From assembly GCF_006438915.1 (NCBI RefSeq), contig NZ_RCZE01000003.1, positions 315,070-379,069 of the forward strand: DNA of 64,000 nt, read 5' to 3'. Below are positions 51,130 through 60,289 of this stretch, one piece after another (positions within the stretch are counted from its first letter, which is position 1; each line of letters opens with the position of its first letter). Below the pieces are notes generated by a model. It ran no database searches. It worked only from the letters and a program-made list of their open reading frames with translations, and had not been told where the DNA came from. Source of the stretch: Pseudomonas arsenicoxydans. Its GTDB lineage: Bacteria > Pseudomonadota > Gammaproteobacteria > Pseudomonadales > Pseudomonadaceae. The translations under genes and the position numbers were made by a program.

Positions 51130-52149
51130 TCATCGCTGGGCGGCGATGGCGTCTACCGACTCGCGAATCAATGCCGGGCCTTTGTAGATAAAGCCGGAGT
51201 AGATCTGTACCAGGCTCGCGCCTGCAGCGATTTTCTCAGCCGCGTGCTTGCCTTCGGTGATCCCGCCCACGGCGATAATCGGTAAGCGACCGGCCAGTTC
51301 CGAGGCCAGTACTTTCACGGTGTGGGTGCTCTTGTCACGAACCGGCGCGCCGGACAGACCGCCCGCCTCGTCGCCGTGTTCCATGCCTTCGACGCCGACG
51401 CGGCTCAGGGTGGTGTTGGTGGCGATCACCGCGTCCATCCCGGTTTCGATCAGCGCTTGAGCGACCTGCGCGGTTTCTTCGTCGGTCATGTCCGGTGCGA
51501 TCTTGATCGCCAGCGGAACGTGTTTACCGTGACGCAACGCCAGTTCCGCTCGGCGGGTGGCCAGGTCAGCGAGCAACTGCTTGAGCGAATCGCCGAACTG
51601 CAGGCTGCGCAGGCCCGGGGTGTTCGGCGAGCTGACGTTAACCGTCACGTAGCTGGCGTGGGCGTAGACCTTGTCCAGACAGATCAGGTAATCGTCGACC
51701 GCGCGCTCGACCGGCGTATCGAAGTTCTTGCCGATGTTGATGCCCAGCACGCCCTTGTACTTGGCGGCAGCTACACGGGCCAGCAGGTGATCGACGCCAA
51801 GGTTGTTGAACCCCATGCGGTTGATGATCGCCTCGGCTTCCGGCAGACGGAAAATCCGTGGTTTCGGATTGCCCGGTTGCGGACGCGGGGTAATGGTGCC
51901 GATTTCGACAAAACCAAAACCCAACTGGGCAAAACCATCGATGGCCGCGCCGTTCTTGTCCAGACCGGCCGCCAGACCCACCGGGTTAGGGAAGTCCAGG
52001 CCCATGACCGACACCGGCATTTTCGCCGGGGCCTTGCACAGCAAGCCGTTGAGGCCCAAACGTCCGCCCGCGCCGATCAGGTCCAGGGACAGATCGTGGG
52101 AGGTTTCCGGGGAAAGTTTGAACAACAGCTGACGGGCCAGGGTGTACAT
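51130..52149 (-). CDS. pyrD: dihydroorotate dehydrogenase (quinone), class 2
   Basis: PyrD oxidises dihydroorotate to orotate at the membrane, with quinone as acceptor, in pyrimidine synthesis. The 339-residue FMN protein has the class 2 N-terminal helices ([19 protein letters not shown]), [10 protein letters not shown] near 59-68, [10 protein letters not shown] near 172-181 with the catalytic Ser, and [17 protein letters not shown] near the end. It is divergent from nasS. Confidence 0.95.
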
Positions 52150-52241
52150 GGGCGGGTTTGACTCTGGGCTACGAAAAGTGGCGGCAATTATAGCCGCGCA
52201 TCGAGGTCGCAGGCGAGGCGCGCGACAAAATCAGCGAGCGA

Positions 52242-52257
52242 TGGCATATGCCTTGCA
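52242..52257 (+). promoter_or_regulatory. sigma-54 promoter of nasST
   Basis: TGGCATATGCCTTGCA has GG at 52243-52244 and GC at 52255-52256 with exactly ten bases between, matching TGGCA-N6-TTGCA. Transcription would start near 52268. Confidence 0.72.
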
Positions 52258-52277
52258 CCGCCAAAGGTATCAGCACT

Positions 52278-52315
52278 CATGCCAACGGCGGAATGGGTCG
52301 AAAGACAACGGCGTC
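52278..52315 (+). promoter_or_regulatory. candidate NasT (ANTAR) RNA target in the nasS leader
   Basis: Hairpin 1: CATGCC - loop AACGGC - GGAATG (52278-52295), with one G-A mismatch. Hairpin 2: GAC - loop AACGGC - GTC (52304-52315), only three base pairs. Both loops are six bases with A at 1 and G at 4, the ANTAR rule. The 3' arm of hairpin 2 is part of the 5' arm of the terminator that follows, so the two are mutually exclusive. It is the weakest of the three leaders because of the short second stem. Confidence 0.6.
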
Positions 52316-52361
52316 GTCACTGGCCCTTGCTTTGGCAAGCGGCTCGGTACGGCGTTTTTTT
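52312..52361 (+). terminator. leader terminator upstream of nasS
   Basis: CGTCGT (52312-52317) pairs with ACGGCG (52349-52354); an inner CTTGC-TTTG-GCAAG stem extends the hairpin. Seven T follow (52355-52361). It stops 17 bases before the nasS start codon, so nasST expression requires read-through. Confidence 0.7.
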
Positions 52362-52378
52362 ATGCAAGGTGCTTAACC

Positions 52379-53590
52379 ATGATTGAAGTTCCAGCCAACC
52401 CCCTGGCGTGGGTCAATGGCAGCGATGCCCCGGAAAAGACCGACATCAACCTCGGCTTCATGGCCCTGAGCGATTGTGCCTCGGTGGTGGTCGCCGCCAC
52501 TCAGGGGTTCGCCCAGCCTTACGGCCTGACCCTGAACCTCAAGCGCCAGTCGTCCTGGGCCAACCTGCGGGACAAACTGGTCAGCGGCGAACTCGACGCC
52601 GCCCACAGCCTGTACGGCCTGATTTATGCCGTCCATCTGGGCATCGGCGGCGTGGCCTCCACCGACATGGCCGTACTGATGGGCCTGAACCAGAATGGCC
52701 AGAGCATCAATCTCTCCCACGGTTTGCAAGCGCTGGGCGTGACCAGTCCTGAGGCACTCGAACACCACGTGCACCAAACTCGCCCGAAACTCACCTTCGC
52801 CCAGACCTTTCCGACGGGCACCCACGCCATGTGGCTGTATTACTGGCTGGCGAGCCAGGGCATACATCCATTACAGGATGTCGACAGCGTCGTGGTCCCG
52901 CCACCGCAAATGGTCGCGCACCTGCAAGCCGGGCGTATCGATGGCTTTTGCGTGGGTGAGCCGTGGTCTGCCAGCGCAGTGCAACAGAATCTCGGCTTCA
53001 CCCTGGCGACGACCCAGACCATCTGGCCCGATCACCCGGAAAAAGTCCTCGGCTGCACCCGTGCGTTTGCCGAGCAGTACCCCAACACCGCGCGGGCCTT
53101 GGTAATGGCGATCCTGGAAGCCAGCCAGTTCATTGAACAAAGCACGGAAAACCGCCGCAGCACCGCACAACTGTTGAGCGCGCCGGATTACCTCGACGCC
53201 CCCCTCGACTGCATCGAACCGCGCCTGCTGGGCGATTACGCCGACGGTCTGGGCCATCGCTGGCAGGACCCGCACGCGTTGCGCTTCCATGCGGGCGGCG
53301 AGGTCAACGTGCCGTACCTGTCCGACGGCATGTGGTTCATGACTCAGTTCCGGCGCTGGGGTTTGTTGCGCGACGACCCGGATTACCTCGGCGTGGCCCG
53401 TCAGATCCAGCAACTGGACCTGTACCGCGAGGCCGCCGGTGCTGTCGGAGTCGATATCCGGGGGCAGGACATGCGCAGCAGCCAGTTGATCGACGGCAAA
53501 GTCTGGGACGGTTCCGACCCGGCCGGCTATGCCCGCAGCTTCAAGTTGCACGCCCTGAGCGACAGCTCGCACCTATTCGCCCAGCGCTGA
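52379..53590 (+). CDS. nasS: nitrate/nitrite sensor NasS
   Basis: NasS resembles the substrate-binding protein of nitrate ABC transporters but is cytoplasmic; it holds NasT inactive until nitrate or nitrite binds. The 403-residue protein has no signal peptide (MIEVPANPLAWVNG). It shows the NrtA-like pattern INLGFMALSDCASVVVAATQGF near 22-43 and CVGEPWSA near 198-205. AAGGTG precedes the ATG at 52379; the frame is open upstream but runs through the leader terminator. nasT follows after 15 bases. No permease or ATPase genes are present, which supports the sensor role. Confidence 0.92.
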   Translation: MIEVPANPLAWVNGSDAPEKTDINLGFMALSDCASVVVAATQGFAQPYGLTLNLKRQSSWANLRDKLVSGELDAAHSLYGLIYAVHLGIGGVASTDMAVLMGLNQNGQSINLSHGLQALGVTSPEALEHHVHQTRPKLTFAQTFPTGTHAMWLYYWLASQGIHPLQDVDSVVVPPPQMVAHLQAGRIDGFCVGEPWSASAVQQNLGFTLATTQTIWPDHPEKVLGCTRAFAEQYPNTARALVMAILEASQFIEQSTENRRSTAQLLSAPDYLDAPLDCIEPRLLGDYADGLGHRWQDPHALRFHAGGEVNVPYLSDGMWFMTQFRRWGLLRDDPDYLGVARQIQQLDLYREAAGAVGVDIRGQDMRSSQLIDGKVWDGSDPAGYARSFKLHALSDSSHLFAQR

Positions 53591-53605: not shown

Positions 53606-54181
53606 ATGCTGCGTATCCTGCTGATCAACGACACCGCGAAGAAAGTCGGTCGACTAAAAACCGCCCTGACCGAAGCCGGGTTCGAGGTGATCGACGAATC
53701 GGGCCTGACCATCGACCTGCCCGAACGCGTCGAAACAGTGCGTCCGGACGTGATTCTGATCGATACCGAGTCACCGAGCCGCGATGTGCTGGAGCAAGTG
53801 GTGCTGGTGACCCGCGACCAGCCTCGTCCAATCGTGATGTTTACCGATGAACATGACCCTGGCGTGATGCGTCAGGCGATCAAGTCCGGGGTCAGCGCCT
53901 ACATCGTCGAAGGCATTCACGCACAGCGCCTGCAGCCGATTCTCGATGTGGCCATGGCGCGGTTTGAAAGTGACCAGGCCCTGCGCGCCCAACTGCATGC
54001 CCGCGACCAGCAACTGGCTGAACGCAAGCGCATCGAGCTGGCCAAGGGGCTGTTGATGAAGATGAAGAGCTGCAATGAGGAAGAGGCTTACACCCTGATG
54101 CGTCGACAGGCGATGAGCCGGCAGCAGAAGTTGATCCAGGTCGCCGAGCAGATTATTGCCATGAGTGAGTTGCTCGGCTGA
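53606..54181 (+). CDS. nasT: ANTAR-domain antiterminator NasT
   Basis: NasT binds RNA hairpins in nitrate-assimilation leaders and prevents termination when released by NasS. The 191-residue protein has a pseudo-receiver domain (about 1-120; the usual phospho-Asp region reads ILIDTESPSRD), a coiled linker (about 120-142) and an ANTAR domain (about 143-186, ELAKGLLMKMKSCNEEEAY). Its probable RNA targets lie in this same window before nasS, before the transporter gene and before nirB. Confidence 0.94.
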   Translation: MLRILLINDTAKKVGRLKTALTEAGFEVIDESGLTIDLPERVETVRPDVILIDTESPSRDVLEQVVLVTRDQPRPIVMFTDEHDPGVMRQAIKSGVSAYIVEGIHAQRLQPILDVAMARFESDQALRAQLHARDQQLAERKRIELAKGLLMKMKSCNEEEAYTLMRRQAMSRQQKLIQVAEQIIAMSELLG

Positions 54182-54207
54182 GGTTTTGTGGTGCCGTTGA
54201 AGGCCCC

Positions 54208-54281
54208 TTCGCGAGCAAGCCCGCTCCCACATTTGATTTGTGTACGACGCAGATCAAATGTGGGAGCGGGCTTGCTCGCGA
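54208..54281. repeat. REPIN between nasT and the nitrate transporter leader
   Basis: Inverted REP units flank ACATTTGATTTGTGTACGACGCAGATCAAATGT, whose ends pair, similar to the spacer at 9311-9401. It ends 25 bases before the next sigma-54 promoter. Confidence 0.92.
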
Positions 54282-54307
54282 ATGGCCGCGACTCTGTCTT
54301 TGAGGGT

Positions 54308-54323
54308 TGGCACAAATCTGGCT
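54308..54323 (+). promoter_or_regulatory. sigma-54 promoter of the nitrate transporter operon
   Basis: TGGCACAAATCTGGC has GG at 54309-54310 and GC at 54321-54322, ten bases apart. Transcription would start near 54333, five bases before the first leader hairpin. Confidence 0.72.
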
Positions 54324-54337
54324 AAGTAATCACCACA

Positions 54338-54378
54338 GGTAACCAACGGCGGTTGCCCCACCTACGACAAAGACGTCG
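54338..54378 (+). promoter_or_regulatory. candidate NasT (ANTAR) RNA target in the transporter leader
   Basis: Hairpin 1: GGTAACC - loop AACGGC - GGTTGCC (54338-54357), seven pairs. Hairpin 2: CGAC - loop AAAGAC - GTCG (54365-54378). The linker is 7 bases. Both hexaloops have A at 1 and G at 4. The GTCG arm of hairpin 2 is also in the 5' arm of the terminator that follows, so NasT binding would block termination. This is the clearest of the three leaders. Confidence 0.8.
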
Positions 54379-54421
54379 CTCACCTCATTTGCCACTGGCG
54401 AATCAGGTAGCGGCGTTTTTT
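54374..54421 (+). terminator. leader terminator upstream of the nitrate transporter gene
   Basis: CGTCGCT pairs with AGCGGCG, then ACCT with AGGT, then ATTTGCC with GGCGAAT around a 3-base loop; six T follow (54416-54421). This long hairpin lies 100 bases before the start codon. Confidence 0.85.
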
Positions 54422-54521
54422 CGTTTTGGCCCCACAGCCCGGGGCCGGTGGTGCGGCCCACAGGCGCCCCACCTGCTAGCTCATGACTCCTTCTCGAGAC
54501 TCTTCACAGCTGAGGTGCGCG

Positions 54522-55733
54522 ATGAATTCAAGCTTCTGGAAATCCGGCCATACGCCGACACTGTTTGCGGCCTTCCTCTATTTCGACCTGAGCTTCATGG
54601 TCTGGTACCTGCTCGGTCCGCTGGCCGTGCAGATTGCCGCCGACCTGCACCTGACCACCCAACAACGCGGGCTGGTGGTGGCCACGCCGATCCTGGCCGG
54701 GGCGGTGCTGCGTTTTATCATGGGCATGCTGGCGGATCGTCTTTCGCCAAAAACCGCCGGGATGATCGGCCAGGTGATCGTCATCTGCGCGCTGTTCGGC
54801 GCCTGGAAACTCGGCATCCACAGCTACGAGCAAGCGCTGGTGCTGGGCCTGTTCCTCGGCATGGCCGGTGCGTCCTTCGCCGTCGCCCTGCCGCTGGCCT
54901 CGCAGTGGTATCCGCCACAGCATCAAGGCAAAGCCATGGGCATCGCCGGTGCCGGTAACTCTGGCACGGTGTTGGCTGCTCTGATCGCCCCGGTATTGGC
55001 CGCCGCGTTCGGCTGGAGCAACGTGTTCGGCTTCGCCTTGATCCCGCTGATCCTGACCCTGATTGTCTTTGCCTGGCTGGCGAAAAACGCGCCGGAACGG
55101 CCGAAAGCCAAGTCTGTGGCCGACTACTTCAAGGCCTTGGGTGATCGCGACAGCTGGTGGTTCATGTTTTTCTACAGCGTGACCTTCGGCGGCTTCATCG
55201 GCCTGGCCAGCGCCCTGCCCGGCTACTTCAACGACCAGTACGGACTGAGCCCGGTGACGGCCGGTTACTACACCGCGGCCTGTGTGTTCGGTGGCAGCCT
55301 GATGCGCCCATTGGGCGGTGCGCTGGCAGACCGTTTCGGCGGGATACGCACGCTGCTGGCGATGTACACGGTGGCGGCGCTCTGCATTGCGGCAGTGGGT
55401 TTCAACCTGCCAAGTTCCTACGCGGCGCTGGCGCTTTTCGTCTGCACCATGCTCGGTTTGGGCGCAGGTAACGGCGCGGTATTCCAGTTGGTGCCGCAGC
55501 GCTTTCGTCGCGAGATCGGTGTGATGACCGGTTTGATCGGCATGGCCGGCGGTATCGGTGGCTTTGCCCTGGCAGCAGGCATGGGCGCGATCAAGCAGAG
55601 CACCGGCAGTTATCAGTTGGCTCTGTGGTTGTTCGCCAGCCTCGGCGTTCTCGCCTGGTTCGGTCTGCACGGGGTGAAACGTCGCTGGAGAACCACTTGG
55701 GGTTCGGCCGCCGTGACGGCGGCCCGGGTCTGA
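54522..55733 (+). CDS. nitrate transporter, MFS nitrate/nitrite porter family
   Basis: This 403-residue protein with 12 membrane helices imports nitrate for assimilation. Family signatures are AGAGNSGTVLAALIAP near 145-160 and GAGNGAVFQLVPQRF near 312-326. I chose ATG 54522 (GAGGTG 7 bases upstream) rather than 54483; residues before it do not resemble the family. It is under the NasT leader, and is followed after 7 bases by the PP2C-kinase gene, so the two are cotranscribed. Different pseudomonads call it nasA or narK; to avoid a clash with the reductase I leave the symbol empty. Confidence 0.93.
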   Translation: MNSSFWKSGHTPTLFAAFLYFDLSFMVWYLLGPLAVQIAADLHLTTQQRGLVVATPILAGAVLRFIMGMLADRLSPKTAGMIGQVIVICALFGAWKLGIHSYEQALVLGLFLGMAGASFAVALPLASQWYPPQHQGKAMGIAGAGNSGTVLAALIAPVLAAAFGWSNVFGFALIPLILTLIVFAWLAKNAPERPKAKSVADYFKALGDRDSWWFMFFYSVTFGGFIGLASALPGYFNDQYGLSPVTAGYYTAACVFGGSLMRPLGGALADRFGGIRTLLAMYTVAALCIAAVGFNLPSSYAALALFVCTMLGLGAGNGAVFQLVPQRFRREIGVMTGLIGMAGGIGGFALAAGMGAIKQSTGSYQLALWLFASLGVLAWFGLHGVKRRWRTTWGSAAVTAARV

Positions 55734-55740
55734 GGCCTCG

Positions 55741-57414
55741 ATGAGCCTGCAACTGAGCTTTGCCGAAGCCAGCGCCATCGGCCCGCGCGAGGAAAACCAG
55801 GACGCCCTGCGCCTCGTGACACCTGCTCCGGCGCTGGCAGCCAGCAAAGGCTACTTGTTCGCCATTGCCGACGGCGTCAGCCAATGCGCCGACGGCGGTC
55901 TCGCCGCCCGTTCGACCTTGCAGGCGCTGGCGCTGGACTATTACGCCACCCCGGAAACCTGGGGTGTCGCGCAAGCATTGGACCGCTTGCTGCTGGCGCA
56001 AAATCGCTGGCTGCAGGCCAATGGTGGCGGGCAACCGCTGCTGACCACGGTCAGCGCACTGGTCATGCGCGGCAGGCGTTTTACCTTGGCCCATGTAGGC
56101 GATTGCCGGGTCTATCGCTGGCACGCGGATCAGTTGCAGCGCATCAGCGAGGATCATGTCTGGGACCAACCCGGCATGCAGCATGTGCTGAAACGGGCAC
56201 TGGGCCTGGATCAGCATCTGGTGCTGGATTTTCTCGATGGCGAATTGCGCCTGAATGAGAGTTTCGTGCTGCTCAGCGATGGCATCTGGGCCGTGCTGGG
56301 CGACGCCGCGATTGCCGCGATTCTGCGGGATCAGCCCGATCTGGACAGTGCAGCGCAGACCTTGGTCAAAGCCGCGCACTTGGCTGGCAGCCAGGACAAT
56401 GCCAGCGCCCTGCTGGTACGGGTCGATGCCTTGGGTGAAACGAGCATCGGCGATGCATTGATTCATTTACAGCAATGGCCATTGCCACCGGCGCTGAAAC
56501 CCGGTCAATCCTTTGAAGGCTGGCACGTGGAAGGGATCCTTGGCCAGAGCCAGCAATCGCTGCTCTATCGGGTTCGCGACGGACAACAGCAACCCTGGCT
56601 GTTGAAAACCTTGCCCGCCGCGCTGCACGACGATCACCTGGCCGGGCAAGCGTTGCTGTCGGAGGAATGGTTTCTCAAGCGCGTGGCCGGACGGCATTTC
56701 CCTGAAGTCCATACCGCCAGTCAGCGTCAGCATTTGTACTACGTGATGCGCGAATATTCCGGCACGACACTGGCAGACCTGCAAGCCAGTGTCGGACCTT
56801 TGCCGTTGGCGCAATGGCAAGATCTGGCCGAGCGCTTGCTTCGCGCGGTTGGCCTGTTGCATCGGCGGCAGATTCTGCACCGCGACATCAAGCCGGAAAA
56901 CTTGCTGCTGGGTGACGACGGCGAATTGCGCCTGCTCGATTTTGGCCTCGCGTATTGCCCCGGCCTGTCCGAGGATCAAGCCTCTGCCCTGCCTGGAACG
57001 CCCAGTTACATTGCACCGGAAGCCTTTCGCGGGGACATCCCGACGCCGCAACAAGACCTGTACGCGGTGGGCGTGACCCTGTATTTCCTGCTGACCGGGC
57101 ATTATCCCTACGGCGAAATCGAAGCGTTCCAGCGACCACGGTTTGGTGTACCGGTCAGCGCCAGTCGCTATCGTCCGGATTTACCGGAATGGATTGCGCA
57201 ATGTCTGGGACGTGCCGTTGTGGCCGATCCGGGTCAACGGTTTGAAACGGCGGAAGAGTGGTTGCTGGTGCTGGAACAGGGCGAGCGGCGCAGCTTGAGC
57301 GTGCGGCCCAGACCGTTGATGGAGCGTGAGCCGTTGAAGGTTTGGCGGACATTGGCATTGGTGTCGTTGCTGCTGAATCTGGTGCTGCTATTTGTGTTGC
57401 TCCACTCATCTTGA
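55741..57414 (+). CDS. fused PP2C-type phosphatase and Ser/Thr protein kinase
   Basis: This 557-residue protein has an N-terminal PP2C domain (about 5-230; GPREENQDA 14-22, IADGVSQCADGG, LLSDGIW, GSQDNASA near 218-225, giving the metal-binding Asp residues). A kinase domain follows (about 262-520; HRDIKPENLL near 380-389, DFGLA near 400-404, GTPSYIAPEAF near 419-429) and a C-terminal membrane helix (about 538-555). The Gly-rich loop is degenerate (ILGQSQQSLLYRV), but the ATP-binding Lys is probably in WLLKTLP. It lies in the nitrate transporter operon, so its targets may be nitrate-assimilation proteins, but none is proven here. Confidence 0.92.
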   Translation: MSLQLSFAEASAIGPREENQDALRLVTPAPALAASKGYLFAIADGVSQCADGGLAARSTLQALALDYYATPETWGVAQALDRLLLAQNRWLQANGGGQPLLTTVSALVMRGRRFTLAHVGDCRVYRWHADQLQRISEDHVWDQPGMQHVLKRALGLDQHLVLDFLDGELRLNESFVLLSDGIWAVLGDAAIAAILRDQPDLDSAAQTLVKAAHLAGSQDNASALLVRVDALGETSIGDALIHLQQWPLPPALKPGQSFEGWHVEGILGQSQQSLLYRVRDGQQQPWLLKTLPAALHDDHLAGQALLSEEWFLKRVAGRHFPEVHTASQRQHLYYVMREYSGTTLADLQASVGPLPLAQWQDLAERLLRAVGLLHRRQILHRDIKPENLLLGDDGELRLLDFGLAYCPGLSEDQASALPGTPSYIAPEAFRGDIPTPQQDLYAVGVTLYFLLTGHYPYGEIEAFQRPRFGVPVSASRYRPDLPEWIAQCLGRAVVADPGQRFETAEEWLLVLEQGERRSLSVRPRPLMEREPLKVWRTLALVSLLLNLVLLFVLLHSS

Positions 57415-57430
57415 CTCGAACTTGATCCCC

Positions 57431-57524
57431 TGTGGCGAGGGAGCTTGCTCCCGCTCGAGCGCGAAGCGGTCGCCGATGTCAGGTCTGCTTCGCAGCCCAG
57501 CGGGAGCAAGCTCCCTCGCCACAG
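57431..57524. repeat. REP doublet, second family, between the kinase gene and nirB
   Basis: GTGGCGAGGGAGCTTGCTCC (left) and its complement (right) with a shorter spacer than the copies at 28733 and 50983. It also marks the end of the transporter-kinase unit. Confidence 0.9.
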
Positions 57525-57532
57525 GTTTCATA

Positions 57533-57633: not shown

Positions 57634-57649
57634 TGGCACAATCACTGCA
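57634..57649 (+). promoter_or_regulatory. sigma-54 promoter of nirBD-nasA-cobA
   Basis: TGGCACAATCACTGCA has GG at 57635-57636 and GC at 57647-57648, ten bases apart. Transcription would begin near 57660, about 19 bases before the first leader hairpin. Confidence 0.75.
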
Positions 57650-57678
57650 TTAGCCTTTCCACCACACATAAAGCCCTG

Positions 57679-57735
57679 CCTTCAACGATGAAGGTTGCGC
57701 TTCCCGAGAGAACGGGACCAGGACAAAGGCGTCCT
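57679..57735 (+). promoter_or_regulatory. candidate NasT (ANTAR) RNA target in the nirB leader, three hexaloop hairpins
   Basis: Hairpin 1: CCTTC - loop AACGAT - GAAGG (57679-57694). Hairpin 2: TCCCG - loop AGAGAA - CGGGA (57702-57717). Hairpin 3: AGGAC - loop AAAGGC - GTCCT (57720-57735). All loops are six bases with A at 1 and G at 4. Hairpin 3 overlaps the terminator 5' arm in the same way as hairpin 2 of the other two leaders. The extra hairpin is unusual for an ANTAR target, which normally has two. Confidence 0.78.
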
Positions 57736-57766
57736 CGCTAGGCAACTAGCGGGACGCCTTTTTTTG
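57726..57766 (+). terminator. leader terminator upstream of nirB
   Basis: AAGGCGTCC pairs with GGACGCCTT and CGCTAG with CTAGCG around a GCAA tetraloop; seven T follow. It lies 70 bases before the nirB start codon. Confidence 0.88.
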
Positions 57767-57835: not shown

Positions 57836-60289
57836 ATGAAAAAATTAAAACTGGTGATGATCGGCAACGGCATGGCCGGGGTCCGTACCCTGGAAGAACT
57901 GCTCAAGCTGAGCAACGAGCTGTACGACATCACGGTCTTCGGTGCCGAACCCCATACCAACTACAACCGCATCCTCCTGTCGCCGGTACTGGCCGGTGAG
58001 CAAACGTTCGAAGAGATCGTGCTCAACGACCTTGACTGGTATCTGGATAACAACATCAAGCTGCTGCTCAACCGCAAAGTGGTGCAGATCGACCGGGTCA
58101 AACGCCGGGTCATCGCCGAAGACGGCACCGAGGCCGACTACGATCGCCTGCTGATCGCTACCGGCTCGACCCCGTTCATCCTGCCGATTCCGGGCAACAC
58201 CTTGCAGGGCGTGATCGGCTACCGTGACATCGCCGACACCCAGGCGATGATCAACACCGCCAAGACCCACAAGCACGCCGTGGTCATCGGCGGCGGCTTG
58301 TTGGGCCTGGAAGCCGCAAACGGCTTGATGCTGCGCGGCATGCACGTGACCGTGGTGCACCTCGGCGAATGGCTGCTGGAGCGCCAACTCGACAAGACCA
58401 GCGGCCAGTTGCTGCAAACCGCCCTTGAAGCGCGTGGCCTGCACTTTCGCCTGTGCGAACAAACCCAGGCCCTGCACGATGCCGGCAATGGCCGCGTCGG
58501 CTCGGTTGAATTCAAGAACGGCGACATCATTCCTGCCGATCTGGTGGTCATGGCCGCGGGCATTCGCCCCAATACCGAACTCGCGGAAAAATCCGGCATC
58601 CCCTGCAATCGCGGGATTCTGGTCAACGACACAATGCAAACCTACGACCCACGGGTCTACGCCATCGGTGAGTGCGCCAGCCATCGCGGCATCGCCTACG
58701 GCCTGGTCGCGCCGCTGTTCGAGCAAGCCAAGGTCTGCGCCAATCACCTCGCCCAATTGGGCTTCGCCCGTTATCAAGGTTCGGTGACGTCGACCAAACT
58801 GAAAGTCACCGGGATTGACCTGTTCTCCGCCGGCGACTTCATGGGTGGCGAAGGCACGGAAACCATCACCCTTTCCGACCCGATCGGCGGGGTCTACAAA
58901 AAACTGGTGATCAAGGATGACGTGCTGGTCGGCGCCTGTCTGTACGGCGATACAGCAGATGGCGGTTGGTATTTCCGGCAGATTCGTGAGAATCACGCCA
59001 TTGGCGAGATCCGCGATCACCTGATGTTTGGGGAAAACGCTTTAGGCGACGTAGGACATCAGGGCCAGGACAAAGCCATGAGCATGGCCGACACCGCGGA
59101 AGTCTGCGGTTGCAACGGCGTATGCAAAGGCACCATCGTCAAGGCGATCCAGGAACACGGGCTGTTCAGTGTCGACGAAGTGAAAAAACACACCAAGGCT
59201 GCCAGCTCTTGCGGTTCCTGCGCCGGCCTCGTCGAGCAGATCCTGATCAATACCGTGGGCGGCGCGGCAGACGTGAAGCCGAAAAGCGAAAAAGCCATCT
59301 GCGGTTGCAGCGATCTCAACCACGGGCAAATCCGTCAGGCCATTCGCGAACAACATCTGCTCACCATCGCCGGCACCCAGAGCTATCTGAACTGGCGCAC
59401 CCCGAACGGCTGCGCCACCTGCCGTCCGGCGCTCAACTACTACCTGATTTCCACCTGGCCGGGCGAAGCCAAGGACGACCCGCAATCGCGCCTGATCAAC
59501 GAGCGCGCCCACGCCAACATCCAGAAAGACGGCACCTACTCGGTGGTCCCGCGGATGTGGGGTGGCGTGACCAACCCTTCGGAATTGCGCCGCATCGCCG
59601 ACGTCGCCGACAAATACAACGTGCCAATGGTCAAGGTCACCGGCGGTCAACGTATCGACTTGCTGGGGATCAAGAAGCAGGACCTGCCGGGTGTCTGGGA
59701 AGACCTCGACATGCCGTCCGGCCACGCCTACGGCAAATCCATCCGCACCGTGAAGACCTGCGTCGGCAGCGAGTTCTGCCGTTTCGGCACGCAGAATTCC
59801 ACGCAGTTAGGCATCGAGCTGGAGCACGACCTGTTCAACATGTGGTCGCCGCACAAAGTGAAACTGGCCGTCTCCGGTTGCCCACGCAACTGTTCGGAAG
59901 CGGGCATCAAGGATGTCGGAATCATCGGTGTCGATTCCGGCTGGGAGATGTACATCGGTGGCAACGGTGGGATCAAAACCGAAGTCGCCGAGTTCTTCGT
60001 GAAACTGAAAACTGCTGAAGAAGTGCGCGAATACAACGGAGCGTTCTTGCAGCTCTATCGCGAAGAAGCCTTCTACCTCGAACGCACCGTGCATTACCTG
60101 CAACGGGTCGGCATGGACCACATCAAGAAAGCCGTGCTGGAAGACCCGGAACGGCGCAAGGCACTCAATGACCGGCTGCAATTCTCGCTGTCGTTCGAAC
60201 AGGACCCGTGGAAGGAACGCCTGACCCAGCCATTGCTGAAGAAAGAATTTGACGTCATTCCCGTGAAGAACCTGGAGGTGCTGGCATGA
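57836..60289 (+). CDS. nirB: assimilatory NAD(P)H nitrite reductase, large subunit
   Basis: NirB reduces nitrite to ammonium with six electrons from NAD(P)H. The 817-residue protein has an N-terminal FAD/NAD domain (IGNGMAGVRTLEELL near 7-21; VIGGGLLGLEAA near 151-162), two BFD-type [2Fe-2S] segments (CGCNGVCKG near 424 and CGCSD near 489, each with a following C-x2-C), a ferredoxin-like half domain, and the siroheme-[4Fe-4S] domain with CVGSEFC near 642-648 and SGCPRNC near 680-686. The next gene (nirD) overlaps its stop. Expression should depend on sigma-54 and on NasT antitermination. Confidence 0.96.
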   Translation: MKKLKLVMIGNGMAGVRTLEELLKLSNELYDITVFGAEPHTNYNRILLSPVLAGEQTFEEIVLNDLDWYLDNNIKLLLNRKVVQIDRVKRRVIAEDGTEADYDRLLIATGSTPFILPIPGNTLQGVIGYRDIADTQAMINTAKTHKHAVVIGGGLLGLEAANGLMLRGMHVTVVHLGEWLLERQLDKTSGQLLQTALEARGLHFRLCEQTQALHDAGNGRVGSVEFKNGDIIPADLVVMAAGIRPNTELAEKSGIPCNRGILVNDTMQTYDPRVYAIGECASHRGIAYGLVAPLFEQAKVCANHLAQLGFARYQGSVTSTKLKVTGIDLFSAGDFMGGEGTETITLSDPIGGVYKKLVIKDDVLVGACLYGDTADGGWYFRQIRENHAIGEIRDHLMFGENALGDVGHQGQDKAMSMADTAEVCGCNGVCKGTIVKAIQEHGLFSVDEVKKHTKAASSCGSCAGLVEQILINTVGGAADVKPKSEKAICGCSDLNHGQIRQAIREQHLLTIAGTQSYLNWRTPNGCATCRPALNYYLISTWPGEAKDDPQSRLINERAHANIQKDGTYSVVPRMWGGVTNPSELRRIADVADKYNVPMVKVTGGQRIDLLGIKKQDLPGVWEDLDMPSGHAYGKSIRTVKTCVGSEFCRFGTQNSTQLGIELEHDLFNMWSPHKVKLAVSGCPRNCSEAGIKDVGIIGVDSGWEMYIGGNGGIKTEVAEFFVKLKTAEEVREYNGAFLQLYREEAFYLERTVHYLQRVGMDHIKKAVLEDPERRKALNDRLQFSLSFEQDPWKERLTQPLLKKEFDVIPVKNLEVLA

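Follow-up and report, generated by a model that had tools for sequence, protein, structure and literature searches.

The segment at positions 52242-52361 of the 64-kb stretch of DNA analysed here (the window) is likely to be a sigma-54 promoter followed by an antitermination leader of the ANTAR type, through which NasT would antiterminate its own operon, nasS-nasT, in a positive feedback gated by both NtrC and nitrate. The leader as such is very probably real, conserved and functional. What appears to be new is that the target of this ANTAR-class leader would be the sensor-antiterminator operon itself; neither a nasST leader nor NasT autoregulation was recognised among the literature matches listed, the search being limited and novelty not secured by it. 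If true, the proposal would introduce a feedback loop into the circuit of nitrate control, which is drawn as feed-forward only in the papers cited below. The leader belongs to a cluster with the gene order pyrD (divergent), nasS, nasT, MFS transporter, protein phosphatase/kinase gene and nirB, the features of which are as follows:

52242 to 52257, plus strand: sigma-54 promoter site TGGCATATGCCTTGCA, a perfect consensus match
52275 to 52298, plus strand: hairpin 1 (P1), loop AACGGC at 52284-52289, based on sequence, covariation and the loop rule
52304 to 52315, plus strand: hairpin 2 (P2), GAC-AACGGC-GTC, with its 3' arm inside the terminator stem
52310 to 52361, plus strand: intrinsic terminator, 5' arm from 52310 and T run at 52355-52361, based on fold and pair conservation
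52379 to 53590, plus strand: nasS, nitrate/nitrite sensor (NMT1_2, 403 aa), based on similarity and gene context
53606 to 54181, plus strand: nasT, receiver plus ANTAR antiterminator (191 aa), 15 nt 3' of nasS
54308 to 54421, plus strand: transporter leader (Rfam narK, RF03032), the second leader of the cluster
54483 to 55733, plus strand: MFS nitrate transporter of the narK/nasA type, named from context
57634 to 57765, plus strand: nirB leader (Rfam P11, RF00625), the third leader of the cluster
57836 to 60289, plus strand: nirB, assimilatory nitrite reductase large subunit

The genome is that of a Pseudomonas; its nearest named nasS, among the best 80 of at least 596 candidates, is that of P. 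brassicacearum 38D7 (98% identity), and NasT was the sole ANTAR-domain match found in the genome. Between the transporter gene and nirB lies a gene (55741-57414) whose product combines domains of a PP2C phosphatase and of a protein kinase and has no evident part in nitrate assimilation. Inverted repeats of 39 nt, 92% and 90% complementary, are present after nasT (54205-54285) and before the nirB leader (57429-57525), respectively; these are presumably Pseudomonas REP-type elements.

What the initial annotation had called a very good sigma-54 site is a perfect match to the consensus; the pattern TGGCAYRNNNNTTGCW has this one exact match in 64 kb, at 52242-52257 (0.14 expected; at least one in 14 of 100 shuffles), and the RNA would be expected to start near 52267. 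A search for sigma-70 promoter-like sites returned none in 52100-52400. The search for NtrC sites 5' of the sigma-54 site gave as its best an 8-of-10 match inside the pyrD coding sequence, with a mean best score (7.68) hardly above that of shuffles (7.43); recurrence of this 8-of-10 match is explainable by conservation of the pyrD coding sequence. The two hexaloop hairpins, both with the loop AACGGC, were confirmed to the base. The arms of hairpin 1 (52275-52283 and 52290-52298) form 8 pairs with one G.A mismatch, and a linker of 5 nt (52299-52303) leads to hairpin 2, in which GAC (52304-52306) and GTC (52313-52315) form a stem of 3 bp around the second loop (52307-52312). The seven-T run does end 17 nt 5' of the nasS ATG (52379), as had been noted, and the placement of the 3' arm of hairpin 2 within the terminator also holds, the GTC at 52313-52315 being paired in the terminator stem. 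This terminator is not listed by a simple terminator scan that wants a loop of 3-8 and no bulge, the one site reported near the leader lying on the minus strand at 52197-52181.

Folded freely, the leader adopts hairpin 1 together with the terminator at -35.6 kcal/mol (z -2.25), which 4 of 200 shuffles matched. When both hairpins are imposed instead, the energy is -27.8 kcal/mol and the base and lower stem of the terminator are lost, and hence hairpin 2 and the full terminator are mutually exclusive. The RNA at 52267-52314 alone folds no better than shuffles (z +0.51). As this stretch is not especially stable by itself, hairpin 2 would need protein, as is expected of an ANTAR target; the same value could be taken to favour the view that the features of the leader arose by chance or are artefacts of the high GC content between the genes. 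The latter view also draws on the background of a simple pattern, since one similar to that described next, with T5, gave 8 matches in the whole genome and 8 in the reversed control. Within the window, however, GACANNGNNGTC-N20-48-T6 has 3 matches where 0.00 were expected, and these are the leaders of nasS, the transporter gene and nirB. A covariance model of nasS leaders (built from alignment A1, below) detected 6 places at E<=10 in the genome itself, the 3 significant ones being the nas leaders, and given that the simple pattern is no commoner genome-wide than in the reversed control, it is this model that carries the specificity. It scores the nasS leader at 83.6 bits, with the window included in the model. 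Together with the covariation and the spread over the family described below, these values leave chance with a practically negligible probability, and the comparative data already refute it.

The model also detects the other two leaders, that of the transporter gene with 51.9 bits and that of nirB with 35.3 bits, which bears out the proposal that all three leaders share one design. The transporter leader has a sigma-54-like site (54308-54323), hairpin 1 with the loop AACGGC (54338-54357), hairpin 2 with the loop AAAGAC (54365-54378) and a T run at 54416-54421. In the nirB leader, a sigma-54-like site (57634-57649) is followed by hairpin 2 with the loop AAAGGC (57721-57734) and a T run to 57765; its hairpin 1, with the loop AGAGAA at 57702-57717, is a reading of the sequence, and the covariance model places that hairpin differently.

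Comparison was made with named nasS loci of Pseudomonas and Stutzerimonas, taken as the best 80 of at least 596 candidates; in 77 of these 80, the sigma-54 regular expression matches 5' of nasS. Alignment A1 consists of 53 rows, the window and 52 of 60 parsed nasS leaders; it excludes L009, L014, L016, L034, L037, L059, L068 and L077 (odd spacing, an odd hairpin 1, or unneeded), while L054, the terminator of which carries an insertion, had been dropped beforehand along with identical rows. Rows were picked by a regular expression for hairpin 2, and so the invariance of hairpin 2 within A1 is by selection. In hairpin 1, 8 of 9 pairs have changed on both sides; double-change cells number 101, where shuffles give 39.4, and neither the 500 shuffles nor any slid version attained the covariation score of the 53 leaders. 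Covariation of the terminator is weaker than that of hairpin 1 but present: 91.5% of pair cells are kept, where shuffles keep 89.7% and 2 of 500 reach the observed proportion, and 5 of 10 pairs show double changes. Without being given the structure, RNAalifold recovered the greater part of hairpin 1 and of the terminator. The A1/G4 signature of ANTAR targets, which played no part in the choice of rows, is maintained in loop 1, with G4 in 53 of 53 rows and A1 in 52 of 53; loop positions 3 and 5 vary, and one row (L010) has an extra base in this loop.

The initial annotation had been less certain of the second hairpin on account of its stem, the length of which (3 bp) is correct. That doubt has largely been answered, inasmuch as the GAC/GTC core occurs in 29 of 29 nasS leaders that were fetched by DNA similarity to the leader of the window and not by motif, these being the closest 29 of 48 other matching genomes and biased, therefore, to close relatives. 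Absence of conservation of the hairpins among close relatives had been named as an outcome that would speak against the proposal; the hairpins are both conserved and covarying. Variants do occur. The linker is approximately 9-15 nt longer in L009, L014, L016, L077, L099-L102, L104, L105, L107 and L108; these leaders exceed the spacing tolerated by EutV, for which lengthening of the linker to 14 nt is reported to be crippling (PMC3369931). Three loci (L068, L076 and L137) have a poor hairpin 1 and retain hairpin 2 and/or the terminator. In P. libanensis (L043:3883-3973), hairpin 2 reads CAC-ATAGGC-GTG instead of GAC...GTC and the terminator is damaged, which may represent either a compensated variant or decay, and in P. 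caricapapayae ICMP 2855 (L054), an insertion of >100 nt has entered the terminator of the nasS leader, of which both arms remain.

A leader was found 5' of nasS in 64 of the 80 named loci (best 80 of at least 596), 52 of which had built the model; the remainder came from 28 further named loci, with 12 positive at E<=0.01. The 16 loci without it are L023, L042, L043, L050, L051, L055, L058, L061, L062, L067, L069, L070, L072, L078, L080 and L081, and their existence among the 80 indicates that the leader is dispensable. All 16 have another match to the model downstream of nasS. Similarly, a scan of 16 loci lacking a normal nasS leader located Rfam narK in 15 (L023, L042, L050, L051, L055, L058, L061, L062, L067-L070, L072, L078, L080 and L081; L043 lay outside this set), the exception being L081. 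In a genus sample of 149 genomes, the leader stands within 350 nt 5' of nasS in at least 81 of 127 copies, matches being listed down to E ~1e-7. The 127 genomes with nasS (>=70% identity, best segment) all fall within the 130 with a model match, compared with 3 of the 22 genomes without such a nasS (G068, G086 and G133); as the genes are neighbours, this co-occurrence is not independent evidence for nasS alone. A family sample yielded the leader at no fewer than 54 of 88 nasS copies and in 8 of 11 nasS-bearing genera (g1, 12/13; g4, 2/2; g5, 3/7; g6, 2/12; g9, 9/12; g10, 5/7; g12, 17/17; g17, 4/4), with none in g15 (0/11), g16 (0/2) and g19 (0/1); g15 is probably Stutzerimonas, judging by its placement in the tree. 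Among the family loci fetched, 21 of 29 had the leader. For both samples, nasS matches below 60% identity were left out, nasS was separated by hand from second copies, and G034, whose nasS is split in two, is represented by the N-terminal part. Second nasS-like copies (60-63% identity) had no listed leader upstream in either the genus (0/10) or the family (0/13) sample. Those of the genus occur in G012, G013, G054, G063, G064, G078, G083, G113, G118 and G123, several such copies sit within a few kb of nasS, and they may represent binding proteins of transporters or else a second sensor.

In a sample of the class, 18 of 274 genomes had a model match at E<=1e-4, two of them being the genome itself and one family member. 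The other 16 genomes provided 18 loci (L158-L175). Downstream of nine of these (L158, L159, L163, L165, L166, L168, L169, L173 and L175) is encoded an NrtA-like protein with an N-terminus that looks signal-like by eye; a transporter or nirB gene follows in five (L160, L161, L164, L167 and L172, the last with only 26% identity), and the downstream gene was left unassigned in four (L162, L170, L171 and L174). A nasT gene downstream on the same strand within approximately 1.5 kb was found at 0 of these 18 loci. Hence, the 274 class genomes gave no clear nasS/nasT leader outside the family, as far as this model reaches, which would miss a nasS leader of a different make.

On a tree of NasS plus NasT with 110 rows, 24 of them leaderless, the leader label requires 8 changes against a mean of 21.9 when shuffled, and the starred branches force at least 4 changes. 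The tree is unrooted and was made by a quick method, and for this reason it does not tell gain from loss; the wide spread of the leader and the nested absences suggest loss. The leader thus appears to be common to many relatives within Pseudomonas and to have been lost in the P. putida and P. stutzeri groups. Named strains of P. putida (L050 and L058) and their relatives are without it, and L077 and L079, which we take to be near P. aeruginosa, carry it. If strain KT2440, in which NasT has been studied, resembles the leaderless L050 and L058, this may explain why the loop has gone unremarked. Such a widespread and yet patchily absent leader provides natural pairs of species with and without it for testing the purpose of the loop. 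The sigma-54 regular expression still matches in 22 of the 24 leaderless loci, 20 of which have no T5 run before nasS (the exceptions are L042 and L130). L130 and L023 look like deletions between the sigma-54 site and the start codon, and L042 and L043 look like decayed leaders.

The retention of the sigma-54 site in most leaderless loci is the observation that would be expected if sigma-54 and NtrC alone controlled nasST, with the leader surviving as a relic or as a fixed attenuator, insensitive to NasT, that reduces the expression of nasST. Three expression studies show nitrogen control of the operon: that by NtrBC is strong in P. aeruginosa, an ntrBC mutant of which has nasS 121-/91-fold and nasT 93-/83-fold down in two columns of data (PMC7214821), both genes are strongly down in an ntrC mutant of P. 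stutzeri (PMC8443478), and nasT of P. putida rises under nitrogen limitation (PMC7801951). A survey of the sigma-54 regulon likewise lists predicted sigma-54 promoters for ANTAR genes, including nasT (PMC12316311). The mutant data fit the leader but do not need it. A fixed attenuator, however, would have no need of hexaloops, and A1/G4 of loop 1 has been maintained together with the stem of hairpin 1 through compensatory changes; control by NtrC alone is therefore considered very improbable.

The preferred reading, in which NasT acts upon its own leader, would operate as follows. Under nitrogen limitation, NtrC would fire the sigma-54 promoter. Control of the nasS promoter by NtrC is what we infer, as are NasT binding, in vivo readthrough, and both the direction and the magnitude of the feedback. 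When nitrate is absent, NasS would hold NasT, the terminator would form, and most RNA would stop at the T run; leak-through would represent the remaining supply of nasST without nitrate, as a basal supply must exist. Paracoccus NasS is reported to free NasT upon binding nitrate or nitrite (PMC3795266), and the same release is proposed here. A dimer of NasT would then grip both hexaloops of the nascent RNA and stabilise hairpin 2, and with hairpin 2 held, the terminator would be denied its 5' arm, allowing RNA polymerase to continue into nasS-nasT. NasS and NasT would in this way exert positive feedback on themselves, rising jointly with the transporter and nirB operons, and because the operon yields both inhibitor and activator, not only the capacity to respond but also that to shut off would be amplified by the loop.

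Terminated transcripts provide for a different role. Under nitrogen limitation, terminated RNAs of approximately 95 nt might sponge NasT and set a threshold, such that the leader would act mainly in trans with control of readthrough being secondary. The leader does contain a complete dual-hexaloop site followed by a strong terminator, Rfam files the related nirB leader, P11, among small RNAs, and a small RNA with an ANTAR site that titrates EutV offers a precedent. Nevertheless, the terminator points into nasS, and in 20 of the 24 leaderless loci the sigma-54 site persists while hairpins and T run have both gone, which better fits a device acting in cis; moreover, a sponge would supplement control in cis and not replace it. 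A predominantly trans-acting leader is thus regarded as quite improbable. The bolder extension of the autoregulatory reading, that nasST is a switch that amplifies itself while the terminated leader RNAs serve as a threshold-setting sponge for NasT, is put forward as speculative and on the whole doubtful; if true, nitrate assimilation would be switch-like or endowed with memory in most Pseudomonas, with a graded response in the leaderless groups of P. putida and P. stutzeri.

Among known systems, that of Paracoccus denitrificans shares the sensor/antiterminator pair and its NtrC-dependent expression, but differs in the gene order, nasT-nasS, and in the position of the hairpins described, which lie before nasA; the available portion of that paper does not mention an antitermination leader on nasTS itself (PMC5424462). 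The closest relative is the transporter leader, Rfam narK (RF03032), which matches the nasS leader at 52243-52317 with 29.5 bits (E 4.8e-4), below the gathering cut-off of 43.2, making the nasS leader a relative and not a member; the narK RNA stands before the transporter gene whereas the nasS leader precedes the sensor operon. The first positions of the narK model fall on the sigma-54 promoter (52243-52317 and 54309-54379), and since the model thus seems to cover promoter sequence, the narK motif may mix DNA and RNA signals. The nirBD leader NalA, probably the same leader as Rfam P11 (RF00625) given its position before nirB, is a described target of NasT; according to a review, NasT binds it and sigma-54/NtrC drives it (PMC12830290). 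It has in common with the nasS leader a promoter of the sigma-54 type, a dual hexaloop and a 3' arm of hairpin 2 inside the terminator, and the same regulator would be expected for both. In contrast, P11 precedes structural genes, its hairpin-1 loop is AGAGAA and its loops are closer together; P11 had no match in 52160-52400 even at E<=5 and its gathering cut-off was not reached there.

With the leaders of eut (EutV), nasF (NasR) and amiE (AmiR), the nasS leader shares the pair of A1/G4 hexaloops and a hairpin 2 that overlaps the terminator (PMC3369931, PMC8934654). The features by which such leaders are recognised are found here: two six-base loops with A1 and G4 (AACGGC twice), stems no shorter than 3 bp (8 pairs plus a mismatch in hairpin 1, 3 pairs in hairpin 2), and a linker of 5 nt, against a range of approximately 5-12 nt reported for EutV (PMC3369931) that one sublineage of nasS leaders exceeds. 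Hairpin 2 overlaps an intrinsic terminator, the genome encodes a cognate ANTAR protein, NasT, and the -24/-12 site typical of NtrC/sigma-54 promoters is present. The genes for AmiR and EutV lie downstream in the operons that they control (amidase and eut), so that ANTAR proteins already offer precedents for autoregulation in itself. The leaders of EutV, NasR and AmiR precede metabolic genes, however, whereas the nasS leader serves an operon that starts with the sensor and the antiterminator.
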